Positions 7,565 through 15,095 of a stretch of DNA of 64,000 bases are shown here, piece after piece. Position 1 is the stretch's first letter, and each line of letters starts with the position of its first letter. Source of the DNA: Chloroflexota bacterium (lineage in GTDB: Bacteria > Chloroflexota > UBA11872); contig JAPOYR010000002.1 in assembly GCA_026706485.1 (NCBI GenBank), forward strand, positions 248,001 through 312,000. The letters run 5' to 3'. Made by a program: the position numbers and the translations under genes. The notes under the pieces were generated by a model, which was not told the origin of the DNA, did not search any database, and worked only from the letters and a program-made list of their open reading frames with translations.

Positions 7565-8587
7565 CTAGGAGGCTTCGGCTTCCAGTGCGGCGAGCGCCTC
7601 GGCGGCCTTGCGCTTCTTATCCGGATCGGGGTCCCGGGCGACGATGCGCTGCAGGGTGGCGCGGGCCTCGATGCCGCCTTGTGCAGCCACCTCGAACGCC
7701 ATGGCATCGCGCTTTTCGTTGTACTGCGTGTCGAATTCCCCCATGTTGAGGTCCCAGTCGCGCCAGTAGTACTGGTGCTGACCCGGCGCCCAGCCGGCGT
7801 AGATCTGCTCCCAGGAGACATCGGGGTCGTGCGGATTCAAGCTGCCAGGCAAGATCGGATCGGCGATGCGCTGGAAGCGCAGGTCCACCGACAGGCGCAA
7901 ACGTTTGCCTGTGGCCGGCGCCCCGCGATGGACGGTCATGCTGTGGAAGAACAGCACGTCGCCTTGGTTGAAGGTGCCGCCCACCCACGTCCCATGCAGC
8001 GGGTCCGAAATCTCCGTACCGCTGGCGCCGAGCGCCGGGACAAAGTCGAAGACGCCCTTCAGATGCGATCCGGCAGCGATCTCAAGCCCACCCATCTCCG
8101 ATGTCAAGTCGGTGAGGGGAATCCAAGCGGTGATCGTGTCGGCGGCGCCCTGCACGGGAACGAAATCCTGGTGCGCCGGCGTGGTGTAGGCCGTGCGCTC
8201 GGGAAATATCACGCGGGCGATGACGCGCGGTTGTGGCATGACGGTGGCGTCCAGGACACGCTCCATCAAGTCCATGAGCTCCGACCGGTGCTGCAGGGCG
8301 TGAAACGCGGGCAGGCTGTAGAGCCGGTTGTAGACCTTCTGGTATTCCGGCTCGGGCTCAACGGCGAATGCGCTGGGATCGGCGACCTGGTCAGTCGCGG
8401 GAGAGTCGGCGGCGATCCAGCCTGAGTCACGCAGCACGGGAAGGAATTGCCGACGCAGGTCTTCGACCACGGGCGGCGGCAGCAGGCCCCGAACGAAAAG
8501 GTAGCCGTCGCGGTCGAAGCGACCGCGCACATCGGCGGCGTCGCCGGCGATTTCAGTAGCGTCAAAGAAGGGACGAACGTCGCTCAT
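7565..8587 (-). CDS. Phytanoyl-CoA dioxygenase (PhyH) family protein, tandem copy A
   Basis: A 340-residue Fe(II)/2-oxoglutarate-dependent dioxygenase. The HxD iron ligands are in PAHQDFVPVQG, the distal His in SMTVHRGAP, and the 2-oxoglutarate Arg in RLRLSVDLRFQR. The N-terminus FDRDGYLFVRGLL is typical of PhyH. The start ATG at 8587 aligns exactly with the start of copy B; the frame is open a further 20 codons but is not needed. It lies 71 bases downstream of copy B and is very similar to it along its whole length. The substrate is unknown; marine bacteria use such enzymes on diverse small molecules. Confidence 0.92.
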   Translation of the reverse strand: MSDVRPFFDATEIAGDAADVRGRFDRDGYLFVRGLLPPPVVEDLRRQFLPVLRDSGWIAADSPATDQVADPSAFAVEPEPEYQKVYNRLYSLPAFHALQHRSELMDLMERVLDATVMPQPRVIARVIFPERTAYTTPAHQDFVPVQGAADTITAWIPLTDLTSEMGGLEIAAGSHLKGVFDFVPALGASGTEISDPLHGTWVGGTFNQGDVLFFHSMTVHRGAPATGKRLRLSVDLRFQRIADPILPGSLNPHDPDVSWEQIYAGWAPGQHQYYWRDWDLNMGEFDTQYNEKRDAMAFEVAAQGGIEARATLQRIVARDPDPDKKRKAAEALAALEAEAS

Positions 8588-8658
8588 GGTCGGACTCTCA
8601 GGAGCCGTGACGTCGTGCGTGAGTGTAGCCAGCGCCGACTCCAACACTGCGGCACGCG

Positions 8659-9681
8659 CTACGCGGTGTCGGCGTCGAGCGCGGCGAGCGCCTCCTCGGC
8701 CCTCAGTTTCTTGGCGGGATCGGGGTCACGGGCGACGATGCGCAGCAGCGTGGCTCGGGCCTCCGCATCGCCCTTGGCGGCCAGCTCGAACGCCATGGCG
8801 TCCCGACGCTCGTTGTATTGCGTGTCGAAATCTGCAACGTCGAGGTCCCAGTCGCGCCAGAAGTACTGGTGCTGTCCCGGCGCCCAGCCCTCGTAAATCT
8901 GCTCCCAGGTGACATCGGGGTCATGCGGTCTGAGGCTGCCCGGCGCAATGGGATCCGCCATCCGCTGAAACCGCAGGTCGACCGACAGCCGCAGCCGAGT
9001 GCCCGTGGCCGGCGCCCCGCGATGGACGGTCATGCTGTGAAAGAACAGCACGTCGCCCTGCTGGAAGGTGCCGCCCACCCAGGCGCCGTGCAGCGGATCG
9101 GTGATTTCCATGCCGCCGGCGCCCAGTGCCGGCACGAAGTCGAACACGCCCTTTCGGTGGGTGCCGGCCGCGATCTGGAGCCCGCCCATCTCGGGTGACA
9201 AGTCAGTGAGCGGAATCCAGGCCGTGATGGTGTCGGCGGCGCCCTGTACAGGCACGAAGTCCTGGTGCGCCGGTGTGGTGTGGGCCGTGCGATCCGGGAA
9301 CAGCACCCGGGCGATGACGCGCGGCTGGGGAATCACGGGAGCGTCGAGCACCGCTCCGATGAGGTCCAGCAGCTCGGCGCGGTGCTGCAGGGCGTGAAAC
9401 GCGGGCAGCCGGTAGAGCTGGTTGTAGACCTTCTGGTAGGCCGGTTCGGGCTCGACGGCGAAGGCGCGCAGCTCGGCGACTTGGTCGTCCGGCGGGGAGT
9501 CGGCGGCAATCCATTCGGCCTCGCGCAGCACGGTGAGGAATTGGCGGCGCAGGTCTTCCACCACGGGCGGCGGCAGCAGGCCGCGCACGAAGAGATAGCC
9601 GTCGCGGTCGAAGCGGCTGCGGGCCGCGTCGGCGTCGCCGGCGATGTCAGTGGCGTCGAAGAAGGGGCGAACGTCGCTCAT
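8659..9681 (-). CDS. Phytanoyl-CoA dioxygenase (PhyH) family protein, tandem copy B
   Basis: A second 340-residue PhyH dioxygenase, the same length as copy A and highly similar, with the same HQD...H...R iron/2-oxoglutarate set (PAHQDFVPVQG, SMTVHRGAP, RLRLSVDLRFQR). The upstream 45 or so bases, including the ribosome-site region, are duplicated too, so the pair arose by a roughly 1.1-kb tandem duplication. Differences cluster in the linker after the first helix and near the C-terminus. Its promoter region abuts the end of mqnD at 9731. Confidence 0.92.
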   Translation of the reverse strand: MSDVRPFFDATDIAGDADAARSRFDRDGYLFVRGLLPPPVVEDLRRQFLTVLREAEWIAADSPPDDQVAELRAFAVEPEPAYQKVYNQLYRLPAFHALQHRAELLDLIGAVLDAPVIPQPRVIARVLFPDRTAHTTPAHQDFVPVQGAADTITAWIPLTDLSPEMGGLQIAAGTHRKGVFDFVPALGAGGMEITDPLHGAWVGGTFQQGDVLFFHSMTVHRGAPATGTRLRLSVDLRFQRMADPIAPGSLRPHDPDVTWEQIYEGWAPGQHQYFWRDWDLDVADFDTQYNERRDAMAFELAAKGDAEARATLLRIVARDPDPAKKLRAEEALAALDADTA

Positions 9682-9730
9682 GATCGGACTCTCGGGAGCC
9701 GTGTCGTCGTGCGTGAGTGTAGCGAGCGCC

Positions 9731-10567
9731 TTAGGCCGGAAGAATGTCCAAGGGCGGCACGCTTTCCAGCAGCCCGGCGTCCGTCGCACGGCGGTAGAGC
9801 GCTTCGAGACCGGCGGCGCCCGGCGTCCCCATGTCGCGAGTCAGATCGTTGACGTACATCCGCGTAAACGCCGCCATGAGGTCTGAGTCAACCTCGGGAG
9901 CAAAGCCGTGGGCGTAGGCCAGCGCCAGCTCGGGATTCGCATCGGCCCAGGCGATCGAGGCGCCCAGGGCGGACGCGAGCGCGCGCTGTCGGGCCTCGCC
10001 GAGTTCGCGCCGCACCACGTTGAGGCCCAGCGGCAGGGGGAGCCCGGTCGAGGCGAACCAACGCTCGCCGAGGTCGAGCTGTTTGACTACTCCGTAGTCG
10101 GCGTAGTTGAGCTGTCCCTCATGGATCACGATTCCCGCCGTCACCGAGCCGTCCCGAACCGCGGGCAGCACGTCGGCAAAGGCCATCTCGACCGGCTGAA
10201 ACGGGGGCAGAAATATCCGGCCGAGGAGATAGGCGGTGGTGTGCTCGCCGGGGATCGCCACCGGCGCGCCGCGGATATCGGCTTCCGCGCTTCGCGCGAC
10301 GACGATGGGGCCATAGTTGAGCCCCATGGACGAGCCGCAGGCGGTGATGCGGTAGTTGTCCGCGACATAGGGATAGGCGCCCGCCGACACCTGGGACATG
10401 TCGAGGTCGCCGGCAAAGGCGCGCCGATTCAATGCCTGGATGTCGGCGTGGACTTCGGAATAGCCACCGGACGGCAAGCCTTCCACCGTCACCTTGCCGT
10501 GGGCCAGCGCGTAGAACATGAACGCGTCGTCGGCGTCGGGGCTGTGGCCCACGGTCACTCGCGTCAT
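9731..10567 (-). CDS. mqnD: 1,4-dihydroxy-6-naphthoate synthase (futalosine pathway)
   Basis: MqnD converts cyclic dehypoxanthine futalosine to 1,4-dihydroxy-6-naphthoate in the alternative menaquinone pathway. The 278 residues show the family signature GHSPDADDAFMFYAL at the N-terminus, CGSSMGLNYGP, an anion-binding PGEHTTAYLL loop and the catalytic IHEGQL histidine. It is the last gene of tetR-mqnE-mqnA-mqnC-mqnD, 13 bases after mqnC. Its fold is shared with MqnA, but the SPDxDD motif separates the two. Confidence 0.95.
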   Translation of the reverse strand: MTRVTVGHSPDADDAFMFYALAHGKVTVEGLPSGGYSEVHADIQALNRRAFAGDLDMSQVSAGAYPYVADNYRITACGSSMGLNYGPIVVARSAEADIRGAPVAIPGEHTTAYLLGRIFLPPFQPVEMAFADVLPAVRDGSVTAGIVIHEGQLNYADYGVVKQLDLGERWFASTGLPLPLGLNVVRRELGEARQRALASALGASIAWADANPELALAYAHGFAPEVDSDLMAAFTRMYVNDLTRDMGTPGAAGLEALYRRATDAGLLESVPPLDILPA

Positions 10568-10580
10568 GACAGGCTGCCGG

Positions 10581-11684
10581 TCAAACGCCGTTGGGCGTCT
10601 CGTCGAACGTGCGCAGAATCTCGTAGAAGCTGTTGCGCTGGGCGGGCACGAATCCGGCCTCGCGGATCATGGTTTGGGTTTCGGCGATGCTGGTGCGGGC
10701 GTAGTGCCCGGCTTCTTGCATCACGTTTTCCTCGAACAGCGTGCCGCCAAAGTCATCCGCGCCGAAGTGCAGCGCCACCTGCCCGACCTTCTTGCCCTCG
10801 CTAAACCACGACGCGTCCACGTGGTCCACGTTGTCGAGGAACAGCCGTGACGCCGCCAGGATGCGCAGATAGCGATTGGCCGACGCCCGCTTGCCCTCGA
10901 GCTTGCGTCCGAGCGGGGTCCCGCCGGGGGCGAAGCTCCAGGGAATGAAGGCCGTGAACCCGCCCGTCTCGTCCTGCAGGTCCCGCACGCGCGCGAGGTG
11001 CTCCACGAGGTCGTCGTCGGTTTCCACGTGCCCGTACATCATCGTGGCGGTGCTGCGCACGCCGGCGTGGTGCGCGGCGCGATGGACCGCGATCCACTCG
11101 TCAGCGTCCATCTTGAGCGGGCTGATGGCGTCGCGGACGCGGTTGGTGAGCACTTCCGCGCCACCGCCGGGAAAGGTGCGCTGACCTGCCGCGAATAGCG
11201 CGGCCATGACCTCGTCGTAGCTCAATCCGGAAACCTTGGCCATCTCGTAGACCTCGGGCGCCGACCAGAAGTGCGGCGTGAGCCCGGGAAACCGCGCGCG
11301 CGTGGCGCGCACCATGTCGGTGTAGTAATCGAAGGGCAGCTCGGGGTTCAGGCCGCCCTGCATGAGCACGGTGGTGCAGCCCATCTCCACCGCCGCCGCC
11401 ATGCGCTCCAGCATTTCGTCGACGGTATGCGTGTAGGCATCAGGCGCGGTGCTCGTGTGCGGCCGATAGAAGGCGCAGAACGAGCAGTAGGCGTCGCAGA
11501 GGTTGGTGTAGTTGAGGTTGGTGTCGACCACGTAGGTGACGACGGATTCGGGATGACGCTGGAACCTGACCTCGTTGGCCAGCGCGCCCAGGTCCATGAG
11601 CGGCGCGTCGCCGAGCAGGTAGACCGCGTCGGCGGTCGAGAGCCGCCGCCCCTCGCGCACCGTGGCTTCAATCGTGCGCATCAT
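10581..11684 (-). CDS. mqnC: Cyclic dehypoxanthinyl futalosine synthase (radical SAM)
   Basis: A radical SAM enzyme that cyclises dehypoxanthine futalosine. The [4Fe-4S]/SAM motif is CX3CX2C in LCDAYCSFCAF. The block FGADDFGGTLFEENV near the C-terminus identifies MqnC rather than MqnE. I set the start at the ATG at 11684, whose ATGA overlaps the mqnA stop, giving 367 residues; the open frame further upstream is only the antisense-free shadow of mqnA. It is translationally coupled to mqnA. Confidence 0.95.
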   Translation of the reverse strand: MMRTIEATVREGRRLSTADAVYLLGDAPLMDLGALANEVRFQRHPESVVTYVVDTNLNYTNLCDAYCSFCAFYRPHTSTAPDAYTHTVDEMLERMAAAVEMGCTTVLMQGGLNPELPFDYYTDMVRATRARFPGLTPHFWSAPEVYEMAKVSGLSYDEVMAALFAAGQRTFPGGGAEVLTNRVRDAISPLKMDADEWIAVHRAAHHAGVRSTATMMYGHVETDDDLVEHLARVRDLQDETGGFTAFIPWSFAPGGTPLGRKLEGKRASANRYLRILAASRLFLDNVDHVDASWFSEGKKVGQVALHFGADDFGGTLFEENVMQEAGHYARTSIAETQTMIREAGFVPAQRNSFYEILRTFDETPNGV

Positions 11685-12442
11685 GCGGCATCGTGCTGGA
11701 CGCTGACCTGGGCATCCAGCTCTCGAAAGCGGTCGACGGCCGTCCAGGCGCGCGGTCCAAAGCGGTACTCGAACGTCTGGAGATAGCGGCGAACCGCCGC
11801 CGCGTCTAGCCCGCAGTCGGGACGCCGCGCGGCCAGCGCTCCCAAGTCTTCGAGGTTGATGGTGAGCTGGCGATCCAGGTAGTCCACCGCCGCCGCGGCG
11901 CTCGCGGGCGCCACGCCCGCCCGTCGCATCCACGCGGCGAACACGAAGGGCAGACCGGTCCACTCGTGCCATGCCGCCGCCAGGTCGGTGACGTGGGGAT
12001 AGCGGGGATCTTGCGGCGCTTGCAGCAGCGCGCGGTCGCCGATGAGCAACACGGCGTCGGCCGGGACATCCAACGGCGCCAGCCGGTAGCCGCCGATGGC
12101 GTAGTAGCGCTGCAAGAGCACGCTCAGCAGCCGGGCCGAGGTGGCCGTGTCGTCGATGACGCCAATGGTCCGGCCGCCCAGGTCGGATGGCGGCACCTCG
12201 GAGAAGAGGAGCACGGACTTGGCGTCGGCCTGGGTCGCGATGCCCATGTCGCCCACCGGTTCGAACAGGTCCGGATGGTCGAACGCGGCGACGATCGGCA
12301 GCGGCGCCACGTCGACCTGGCCGCCGCGCACCAGATCGATCATGGCCCGGGGGGTCGCCGTGCGCGCTTCGGCGCGAACCGGATCGTCGCCGAAGAACGG
12401 CTCGGTGTTCAGATAGGGAATGCGCCCGAGGCTAGGCAGCAT
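11681..12442 (-). CDS. mqnA: Chorismate dehydratase
   Basis: MqnA dehydrates chorismate to 3-enolpyruvylbenzoate, the first committed step of the futalosine route. The 253-residue protein has the periplasmic-binding-like fold. Visible family blocks are GRIPYLNTEPFF at the start, GQVDVAPLPIVAAF, SVLLFSEVPP, and IGDRALL followed by WHEWTGLPFVFAAW. It begins inside the end of mqnE (11-base overlap) and ends in the ATGA of mqnC, consistent with one transcript. Confidence 0.95.
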   Translation of the reverse strand: MLPSLGRIPYLNTEPFFGDDPVRAEARTATPRAMIDLVRGGQVDVAPLPIVAAFDHPDLFEPVGDMGIATQADAKSVLLFSEVPPSDLGGRTIGVIDDTATSARLLSVLLQRYYAIGGYRLAPLDVPADAVLLIGDRALLQAPQDPRYPHVTDLAAAWHEWTGLPFVFAAWMRRAGVAPASAAAAVDYLDRQLTINLEDLGALAARRPDCGLDAAAVRRYLQTFEYRFGPRAWTAVDRFRELDAQVSVQHDAA

Positions 12443-13538
12443 GGGTGCGCATGACGGTGTAGGTGGCGTTGCGTTCCACCGGCACCTTGCCGGCCGAGCG
12501 AATGAGCCCCACCAGCCGCGTGCGGGCGACGCCGACCGGGCTGTCGGCTAGCGCGGCGTGCGCGATGCGCTCGGTGCCGATGGTGCCGTCCAGGTCGTCG
12601 GCGCCAAAGTTCAGACCGATTGAGGCGGTCTCTTCGCCCGTCATCACCCAATAGGCCTTGATGTGCGGAAAATTGTCGAGCATCAGCCGGGCGGTGGCGA
12701 TCATGCGCAGATCGTCGATAGCGCTGGCGTGGCGGGGCACGAGGTTCGTGGTGCCGAGCTGGTATTCCAAGGGGATAAAGCAGAGGAATCCGCCGGTGAC
12801 GTCCTGGGCCTCGCGCAGCCGCACGAAGTGGTGGATGCGCTCCTCGTGCGTCTCGATGTGGCCGTAGAGCATCGTGGCGTTGGATTGCAGCCCCATGCGG
12901 TGGGCGAGGTGGTGGATTTCGATCCAGCGGTCGGCGCCGGCCTTGCCGCGGAAGAGCTCGCGTCGCACCCGCTCGGAAAAGACCTCCGCCCCGCCGCCGG
13001 GCATCGAACTGACGCCGGCGGCCATCATGCGTTGCAGGACCTCCGCGTCCGAGAGCTTGAATCGCTTGTGGAAATAGTCGACCTCGGCCGCCGTGAACGC
13101 CTTGATCTGGACGGCGGGTCGCTCGTCCTTGATGGCGCGCAGCAGATCCTCGTACCACTCGAACGGGATGTCGGGGTGGTGGCCGCCGACGATGTGCACC
13201 TCGTGCACGTCGGGCGGAATCTGGCCCAGGATTTCGGCGATCGAGTATTCGTAGGCGTGGCTGTCGCCGCGCTTGGCGGCGAAGTCGCAGAACTTGCACG
13301 ACAGCACGCAGATGTTGGTCGGATTGATGTGGACGTTGAGCGTGAAGTACACGCGGTCGTCGGAGCGACGGCGGGCGGCCCAATCGGCCATGCGCCCCAG
13401 GCCGACGATGTCCGGCGTCTGGAGGCAGCGGAGTCCGTCGGCCGCGCTGAGGCGACGTCCTTCGCGGACGCTGTCCCAGATAGGCTCCAGCGCGGCGTCG
13501 CGGAAGCGCATGTCGGGAGCGGTGATCGCCTCAGGCAT
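12432..13538 (-). CDS. mqnE: Aminodeoxyfutalosine synthase (radical SAM)
   Basis: MqnE joins 3-enolpyruvylbenzoate to SAM, forming aminodeoxyfutalosine. The 368-residue protein has the CX3CX2C cluster motif (ICVLSCKFCDF), the HIVGGHHPDIPFEWY block and the late NFGADDLDGTIGTERI block that separates it from MqnC. It starts 8 bases inside the end of the tetR gene and overlaps mqnA by 11 bases. The nucleosidase or deaminase needed for the next step (MqnB or an adenosine deaminase) is not in this window. Confidence 0.95.
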   Translation of the reverse strand: MPEAITAPDMRFRDAALEPIWDSVREGRRLSAADGLRCLQTPDIVGLGRMADWAARRRSDDRVYFTLNVHINPTNICVLSCKFCDFAAKRGDSHAYEYSIAEILGQIPPDVHEVHIVGGHHPDIPFEWYEDLLRAIKDERPAVQIKAFTAAEVDYFHKRFKLSDAEVLQRMMAAGVSSMPGGGAEVFSERVRRELFRGKAGADRWIEIHHLAHRMGLQSNATMLYGHIETHEERIHHFVRLREAQDVTGGFLCFIPLEYQLGTTNLVPRHASAIDDLRMIATARLMLDNFPHIKAYWVMTGEETASIGLNFGADDLDGTIGTERIAHAALADSPVGVARTRLVGLIRSAGKVPVERNATYTVMRTHAA

Positions 13539-14181
13539 GGGCCGGAGTCCGGTCCGCCCGGAGCTGGTTGATGTCGATGCCCACGCTCTGCAGCAGCAAA
13601 TGCCGCAGCGCCGGATAGGTCATGTGCAACGGCCCATGGTCGGGATCGTGCAGCCAGCGGACGACGATTTCGCTGATGGCGCCGAACCAGGCGGTGGCGA
13701 TGAGATCGGTGTCGCAGGGTTCGAGGGTGCCCTCGGCGACCGCGGCGTCCAGGTGGCGGCGAATCAGCGCGGCAAACTGCTGCCGGACGAAGAGTAAGTC
13801 GTCGCTGAAGGCGCGCCCGGCGCCCGCAACCTCCACCAGCGTGACGCGCGCCAGCGTGCGGTGCTTGGTGAAGATGTCGATGACCGACAGCAGCGCGGCG
13901 TCGAGCCGGTGGATGGCGGTGGGCTCGTCGACCAGCTCCCGCTCGACGCGCTCGACCAGGTAGGACGCCAACTCCCGCACCAACGCGCGAAAGATGGCCT
14001 CTTTGCTCGGAAAGTGAAAGTAGGCCGTGCCCTTGGAACGGCCGGCGCGGGTGACGATTTCGTCAACCGCCGCGCGGTGATAGCCCTTCTCGCCAAAGAC
14101 GTTGAGGGCGGATTCGAGCAGCGCGCGCCGCGTGGCGTCTCGCTTGGTTCCGCGACGGGCCCCAGGGAGGCGAAGTTGCAA
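13531..14181 (-). CDS. TetR-family transcriptional regulator heading the menaquinone operon
   Basis: A one-component regulator with an N-terminal TetR helix-turn-helix (residues about 15-60: ALLESALNVFGEKGYHRAAVDEI, then AGRSKGTAYFHFPSKEAIF) and a helical ligand/dimer domain. The frame is open for a further 116 codons upstream but those are arginine-rich shadow sequence. The likely start is the TTG at 14181, with a GGTGA-like site upstream; no ATG or GTG fits. It overlaps mqnE by 8 bases, so it is cotranscribed with the mqn genes. A palindrome at 14195-14216, right at its start, fits an autoregulatory operator. The C-terminal domain looks like the TetR_C group seen with fatty-acid-type ligands, but this is a guess. 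Confidence 0.85.
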   Translation of the reverse strand: MQLRLPGARRGTKRDATRRALLESALNVFGEKGYHRAAVDEIVTRAGRSKGTAYFHFPSKEAIFRALVRELASYLVERVERELVDEPTAIHRLDAALLSVIDIFTKHRTLARVTLVEVAGAGRAFSDDLLFVRQQFAALIRRHLDAAVAEGTLEPCDTDLIATAWFGAISEIVVRWLHDPDHGPLHMTYPALRHLLLQSVGIDINQLRADRTPAHA

Positions 14182-14194
14182 CGGCCGATCACCA

Positions 14195-14216
14195 AAACCG
14201 ACTGGTGAGTCAGTTT
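14195..14216. promoter_or_regulatory. Inverted-repeat operator, probable TetR binding site
   Basis: Nine-base arms AAACCGACT and AGTCAGTTT flank a 4-base centre GGTG; 8 of 9 positions are complementary. The GACT-N4-AGTC core is the usual arrangement for TetR-family operators. It lies 13 bases before the proposed tetR start and after the end of the preceding gene, so binding should block transcription of tetR-mqnEACD. No clear -35/-10 pair is visible around it. Confidence 0.7.
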
Positions 14217-14255
14217 GGCCCAAGTGGGATTCCGGCGTCAACTGAAGGGTTGAGC

Positions 14256-15095
14256 CTAGACCCGAATGCGGGCGAAGTTCATCCGCAACGGCGCGAGGGC
14301 GTCTCGGTTGAGAATCACGGTGGCGGGCATGGGGTCGCGCTTCTGAACCGGCATGGCCCACGCGCCAAACCGGTCGCCCAAGAGGGTGGCGCGGGAGGTG
14401 ACCCACATGCGCCCGCCGTCGAATGGCGACATCAGCATGGTGCCGATGGCCTGCTCGCCGCCGGACAGCGCCGCGGCAAAAACTAACCCCACCTGCGCGG
14501 CGGACACGGCGCCAAATGCCGAGTCCCAAACCTGGGCCATGAACTGGCGCTCGATCATGCTGGCCGCGGCGCGGCGCGGATCGCTGACGTTCACGCCCTG
14601 CGCCCGAATGCTGGCCTCGGCGCTGGCGATCAGGGTGTCGCGAGACTTGAAGAACTGGTCGCGCGCCGCCTCGACGCGGGTGCGATATGCCTCGGTGGGA
14701 TCAAACGGCAGCATAACGACGAGGATGGCCGGAACATGCCGCGGATCGACGTCGAGCGCCACCCGCACCTGATACGGCGGCGAAGGCTGGGTGCGAGCTT
14801 CGGCGTCCTTCTGAGGTTCGGTCGTCGCTGCCGGAGCTTCAGCCGCCTCAGCCTCGGCAGCCGGAAGCGACTCAGTCTCCGCGGTGGGCGCTGGCTCCGC
14901 GGCGGGTGGAGGCTCCGGCGGAGGAGTGGGCGCGGCCGGCAGCGGCTGGCCGCTGGGACCAAGCAGCACGGGCCGTTTGTTCCTCGACTGGGCCACGGCA
15001 TCACTTTCCGGCAGCAGTGCGGGGCATGCTACCGCACTCGCGGCCGCGGCCCACCCCCAGGCCATCGCGGGCGCGGCGTATTCTTGGTCGAACAT
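14256..15095 (-). CDS. Uncharacterised secreted or lipoprotein-like protein with proline/alanine linker
   Basis: I do not recognise the family. The N-terminus is weakly hydrophobic ([18 protein letters not shown]) and contains a possible lipobox (AVAC), which would favour the ATG at 15065 over 15095. A low-complexity Pro/Ala/Glu linker covers roughly residues 45-105, and a folded C-terminal domain follows ([22 protein letters not shown], then a helical [16 protein letters not shown]). That suggests a membrane-tethered extracytoplasmic domain on a flexible stalk. It is divergent from the aldolase gene and 39 bases upstream of the tetR operator. Confidence 0.6.

Follow-up and report, generated by a model that had tools for sequence, protein, structure and literature searches.

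A TetR-family regulator and a conserved predicted operator accompany both routes of menaquinone synthesis in Chloroflexota

We analysed a stretch of 64,000 nucleotides (the window) from a Chloroflexota bacterium of the lineage UBA11872 (GenBank assembly GCA_026706485.1, contig JAPOYR010000002.1, positions 248,001 to 312,000, forward strand). It carries an operon for the futalosine route to menaquinone (vitamin K2, an electron carrier of respiration), headed by a gene for a TetR regulator with a palindrome at its start. We identified the following features, numbered from the first letter of the window:

14236–14241, minus strand: TTGACG, possible -35 element
14195–14216, minus strand: predicted operator palindrome AAACTGACTCACCAGTCGGTTT, conserved unit ACYGAC-N6-GTCRGT
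13531–14181, minus strand: tetR, TetR regulator of 216 amino acids with a TTG start; TetR_N and TetR_C_24 domains (Pfam)
12432–13538, minus strand: mqnE, aminofutalosine synthase; TIGR03700 above cut-off
11681–12442, minus strand: mqnA, chorismate dehydratase; PF02621, told from mqnD by operon order
10581–11684, minus strand: mqnC, cyclic dehypoxanthinyl futalosine synthase; TIGR03699 above cut-off
9731–10567, minus strand: mqnD, 1,4-dihydroxy-6-naphthoate synthase; PF02621, told from mqnA by operon order

A preliminary description, made from the letters alone, had these five genes overlapping or nearly touching, and this is borne out: tetR and mqnE overlap by 8 nt, mqnE and mqnA by 11 nt, and mqnA and mqnC by 4 nt, with a gap of 13 nt between mqnC and mqnD. 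The domain matches agree with the gene names. MqnE reaches 445.1 bits on the NCBIfam equivalog TIGR03700 (cut-off 434.55) and MqnC 454.1 bits on the equivalog TIGR03699 (cut-off 428.1), while MqnA and MqnD, at 130.7 and 225.1 bits on PF02621 (cut-off 26), are the only two matches to that family in the window's genome. The regulator combines an N-terminal helix-turn-helix (PF00440, 58.4 bits against a cut-off of 24) with an all-helical C-terminal ligand and dimer domain (PF17932, 32.6 bits against 26.4), and all 17 family loci compared have a start codon (ATG, GTG or TTG) at the position of its TTG.

The palindrome has its centre 24 nt before the TTG start, and its conserved unit has A/T flanks. 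The pattern AAACNGACN6GTCNGTTT has a single exact site in the 3.37-Mb genome, the palindrome itself; with up to two mismatches there are four sites genome-wide, against nine for a control pattern. The preliminary description had rightly placed an inverted repeat at the tetR start. The GACT-N4-AGTC core that it singled out is rejected as the operator: its 22 genomic sites are fewer than the 31 of the reversed-pattern control, and it varies within the genus (GACCCACCAGTC, GACCGACCAGTC). The search that it proposed, for the palindrome in relatives and elsewhere in this genome, found the site before mqn genes in relatives and only the one exact copy at home. A regulon scan with one mismatch across 101 genomes (the window's own and 100 relatives) stayed at background, with 17 sites against 14 for the control in the window's genome.

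Clear orthologues of the regulator, at 137 bits or more, are found in 40 of the 101 genomes, the next match scoring 63 bits. In a wider draw, 114 of 400 genomes of the phylum have a match at 1e-30; 111 of these score 167 bits or more, with the following match at 121.7. Relatives lacking both the regulator and the palindrome beside their mqn genes would have spoken against the earlier proposal of a dedicated TetR, and this pattern was not found: all 18 genomes of the window's family that have an orthologue carry mqn genes directly downstream together with the palindrome, as do four of the five genomes sampled from the sister family. We then used 80 named loci, the best 80 of 551 relatives. Since such a sample leans to similar proteins, further loci were checked for more distant members. 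Menaquinone genes come next downstream on the same strand in 76 of the 80 named loci; two of the remainder end with the contig and two are without assigned neighbours. The downstream genes are classical men genes (menF/D/B) in 41 loci, early mqn genes in 27, late mqn genes in seven and menA in one. One of the 27, L080, is counted solely through an MqnE-like neighbour that is dead as a radical-SAM enzyme. At L034 the next three genes encode isochorismate synthase (331.9 bits against a cut-off of 224.75), MenD (454.9 against 244.2) and MenB (487.3 against 380). The late set of L114 comprises the menaquinone decarboxylase MqnL (638.1 against 495.9), a UbiX-type protein, MenG and an MqnP-like prenyltransferase that passes the UbiA-like subfamily cut-off and falls short of those of the MqnP models.

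The further loci, 36 from the phylum draw, were picked to include lower-scoring members, and 33 have menaquinone genes downstream. Eight of the 36 come from contigs already represented by named loci; without these the count is 26 of 28, the two misses being a short contig stretch and one true exception, described below. Four paralogous TetR loci (89–93 bits) have neither menaquinone neighbours nor the operator. Nearly all of this evidence comes from one phylum. Outside it, G412, labelled Deltaproteobacteria, and the related G415 have tetR, operator and menF (loci L120 and L264). They are two of 58 genomes in their surroundings, among which three weak matches have neither operator nor menF; because the set is absent from most of their relatives, its presence there looks like a possible horizontal transfer.

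The operator is conserved too. A perfect ACCGAC-N6-GTCGGT (12 of 12 positions) lies in 47 of 80 tetR 5' regions and in none of 2308 control windows of equal length drawn from the same loci; at least 11 positions match in 60 of 80, while a single control window reaches 11. Reduced to a single member of each 65% identity cluster, the set has 20 of 25 loci scoring 0.9 or more, against 0 of 686 control windows. Two spacings occur among the 78 loci with upstream DNA (L079 and L081 have none): type A in 58 loci and type B, AGACYGAC-N2-GTCGGT, in 20. The spacing is matched by the residue that follows SKG in the recognition helix. Glycine is paired with type A in 38 of 40 loci and serine with type B in nine of nine, counts that include phylogeny; with one locus per cluster they become 10 of 10 and three of three. 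Alanine and threonine occur with both types. A sigma-70-like promoter (at least 8 of 12 positions) immediately precedes the operator centre in 42 of 78 loci, compared with 46 of 2340 random places. Its -10 element mostly starts 14–31 nt before the centre, which puts the operator across the expected start region. In the sister genus, TTGACA-N17-TAAAAA or TACAAA stands at the place that corresponds to the window's TTGACG.

Sites also occur before menaquinone genes away from tetR. Three genomes (L197, L198 and L199) have tetR at the head of the late module, and in each of them a type-B site lies some 70 nt ahead of mqnE of the distant mqnE-mqnA-mqnC operon, exact in L197 and with one mismatch in the other two. 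An mqnD-mqnE operon has an exact site in L193, where tetR lies elsewhere, and in a fifth genome (L171, L184) there is a site before menF, while tetR adjoins menA elsewhere.

The same regulator lineage has changed pathway more than once. A careful tree of 82 regulators requires three changes of the mqn/men label, of which supported branches impose at least two; a single change suffices in none of 200 bootstrap trees. This tree uses 82 of 103 rows, leaving out long or unclear rows, those lacking an mqn/men label and those with a dead MqnE-like neighbour; on a quick tree of all 103 rows six changes are needed. The clearest case lies within one family of Ktedonobacterales: the arrangement tetR-menF-menD, in G193 and G214, goes with the absence of PF02621 matches, while tetR-mqn, in G123, G179, G207 and G221, goes with two such matches per genome. 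The regulators of the men loci L117 and L137 are 72–83% identical to those of six mqn loci, and operators in this order are almost identical between men and mqn loci (AACAGACCGGCGCGTCGGT in L117 and L138, for example). At L080 (3729–4784), L162 and L037 (3919–4854) an MqnE-like protein directly follows tetR. None of the three shows a CX3CX2C motif on reading, and that of L080 scores 92.7 bits and has no radical-SAM Pfam match. There is no PF02621 match in genomes with this dead protein (that of L080, G049, and also G109), and the genome of L080 has the operator before a menF-like gene. Taken together, the missing motif, the missing MqnA and MqnD and the operator at the menF-like gene suggest that the dead protein beside tetR is likely a relic of pathway replacement.

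The conserved pairing, the operator, its placement at promoters, the sites in trans and the switch of route are read directly from the genomes. From them we infer, at a probability of roughly three in four, that the TetR protein autoregulates and serves as a dedicated repressor of menaquinone synthesis, answering to a signal common to both routes, most likely the product pool. A TetR dimer would bind the ACCGAC-N6-GTCGGT palindrome over the start region of its own operon's promoter and so repress tetR and the downstream menaquinone genes together; in some genomes it would also act on unlinked menaquinone operons bearing the same site. One regulator lineage would thereby serve the futalosine and the classical route. 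The preliminary description had proposed a dedicated TetR for the futalosine pathway. The conserved pairing with mqn genes upholds the dedication, but a futalosine-specific regulator is rejected, because men operons lie downstream in 41 of 80 loci.

The nature of the signal, and whether it helps or hinders binding, we judge from the known pathways. Both routes begin from chorismate and converge on prenylated products, but no dedicated middle intermediate is common to them, so the signal would most likely be the product pool. That the regulator follows either route likewise disfavours an intermediate of the futalosine route and favours a shared compound, and the same tetR and site before either of two unrelated pathways suggest control of an end product rather than of one pathway. 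We propose that menaquinone, demethylmenaquinone or their quinols, or else a late prenylated precursor, would act as co-repressor. This is our first choice, with acyl-CoA or another lipid ranked second and chorismate third. More tentatively, at somewhat less than even odds, the TetR protein may read menaquinone or demethylmenaquinone directly, as a phylum-wide gauge of the pool that was kept with its operator through swaps of route; regulation would then have outlived the pathway that it once governed.

Several observations weigh against this interpretation. No sigma-70-like promoter was found by scan at the window's own tetR, where we see no recognisable -10 box. Among six examined mqnD genes that stand alone (L186–L189, L191 and L192) none has a site. 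The mqnL and mqnP genes of the window's genome, on another contig, have no operator, and the same holds in nine other genomes of the two families; control there would reach the early operon only. The fifth sister-family genome (G019), as well as G034 and G037, have mqn genes and no orthologue of the regulator that we could find, and G116, the true exception among the further loci, lacks both menaquinone genes and operator at its close orthologue. In the families that we call f3, six labelled orthologues lie away from menaquinone genes, five of them by an NMT1-type ABC transporter and one at a contig end. At tetR the sites seen in f3 do not fit the motif, and the eight f3 genomes scanned contain four single exact operator sites, none at tetR or at a menaquinone gene that we saw.

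The alternatives differ in what is sensed and in what the bound protein does. The regulator may instead sense long-chain acyl-CoA or another membrane lipid and tie quinone supply to the state of the membrane or of fatty acids. The predicted structure (mean pLDDT 89.7, nine helices) lends this some weight: among the matches listed, its closest solved folds are Bacillus FadR, including a stearoyl-CoA complex (TM 0.87–0.88 on the target; Z 20.6–20.9, with 20.6 for 3whc, and 21.0 for Rv0078), and its best NCBIfam family is FadR (NF053878). The score there is 75.4 bits, however, under a cut-off of 200, and fatty-acid genes are not seen to recur at the loci as menaquinone genes do, which leaves a lipid signal unlikely. 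A reading in which chorismate or another entry metabolite is the inducer, opening the pathway when substrate is plentiful, would suit TetR proteins, which usually leave DNA on ligand binding, and chorismate is the other compound common to both routes. It appears rather less probable still, as the nearest fold binds a long acyl chain and seven of the 80 loci are late-module operons (mqnL/P/M, menG), which use no chorismate.

Doubts of another kind concern the repression itself. The protein might be an activator, or might repress tetR alone with the enzymes as passengers of the operon. In many men loci 100–600 nt separate tetR from the first recognised menF match, leaving room for a second promoter; but the 8-nt overlap of tetR and mqnE in the window, operators that cover the predicted start region or lie immediately after it, and sites directly before mqnE, mqnD and menF where tetR lies elsewhere make either version improbable. 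An ordinary efflux-type TetR beside a chance palindrome could draw on the fact that the GACT-N4-AGTC core alone is not rare, yet it is contradicted by the conserved operator, the gene context and the per-cluster counts, and we give it next to no credence. A thiol switch is rejected as the means of sensing: no cysteine column is conserved, the best being filled in seven of 50 rows. The preferred reading remains that of a repressor with the product pool as co-repressor.

If this reading holds, two non-homologous routes of menaquinone synthesis would share a dedicated transcriptional regulator and its defined operator, and the swaps would form a natural experiment in which a pathway is replaced while its regulation stays. 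The regulator might furnish a genetic sensor for the quinone pool, and in uncultured Chloroflexota the operator might mark menaquinone genes still to be found, transporters among them. The preliminary description had called such regulation not known as described, and this agrees with our literature search, which found no description of this regulator in the sources covered, including passages of PMC4746308 and PMC9835592; subscription journals lie mostly outside that coverage, so absence is unproven.

We also observed several neighbouring genes. An ABC transporter whose binding protein is of the NMT1/THI5 type is part of the tetR operon in L040, L076, L087, L089, L222 and L224, and the same arrangement is seen in the f3 loci L026, L031, L043, L047 and L048. 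It occurs in futalosine and classical genomes alike and is a candidate importer for a quinone precursor; should the regulator gauge the pool directly, the transporter would be a salvage importer. Two tandem PhyH-like dioxygenase genes follow mqnD in the window (7565–8647 and 8659–9789, minus strand), the GTG start of the second, at 9789, overlapping mqnD and being probably wrong. Downstream of mqnD there is likewise one PhyH match in G002 and a pair in G004; none was seen in the other genus. Directly upstream of tetR, a gene at 14256–15095 (minus strand) encodes a protein with a proline/alanine-rich N-terminus and no Pfam or NCBIfam match; it is kept in this position in all examined loci of the window's family.

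Among known systems, FadR of Bacillus subtilis, also of the TetR family (PDB 3whc, 3whb), is closest in whole-length fold and in NCBIfam score, but it is only 23–24% identical, falls far under the family cut-off and governs a different gene set. We take FadR to be a long-chain acyl-CoA sensor whose operator differs from ACCGAC-N6-GTCGGT. MbdR, FasR, EthR2 and Rv0078 also match in fold, and MbdR in sequence, at identities of about 20%; they bind aromatic-CoA, acyl or drug-like ligands and govern other genes. NemR, QsrR and YodB are repressors that respond to quinones, as is proposed here, but they are thiol-based, need reactive cysteines and govern detoxification rather than synthesis. Product-side feedback on menaquinone synthesis has a precedent in DHNA, which inhibits MenD according to PMC9835592. 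That feedback acts on an enzyme and in the classical route only, whereas the control proposed here would be transcriptional and independent of route.

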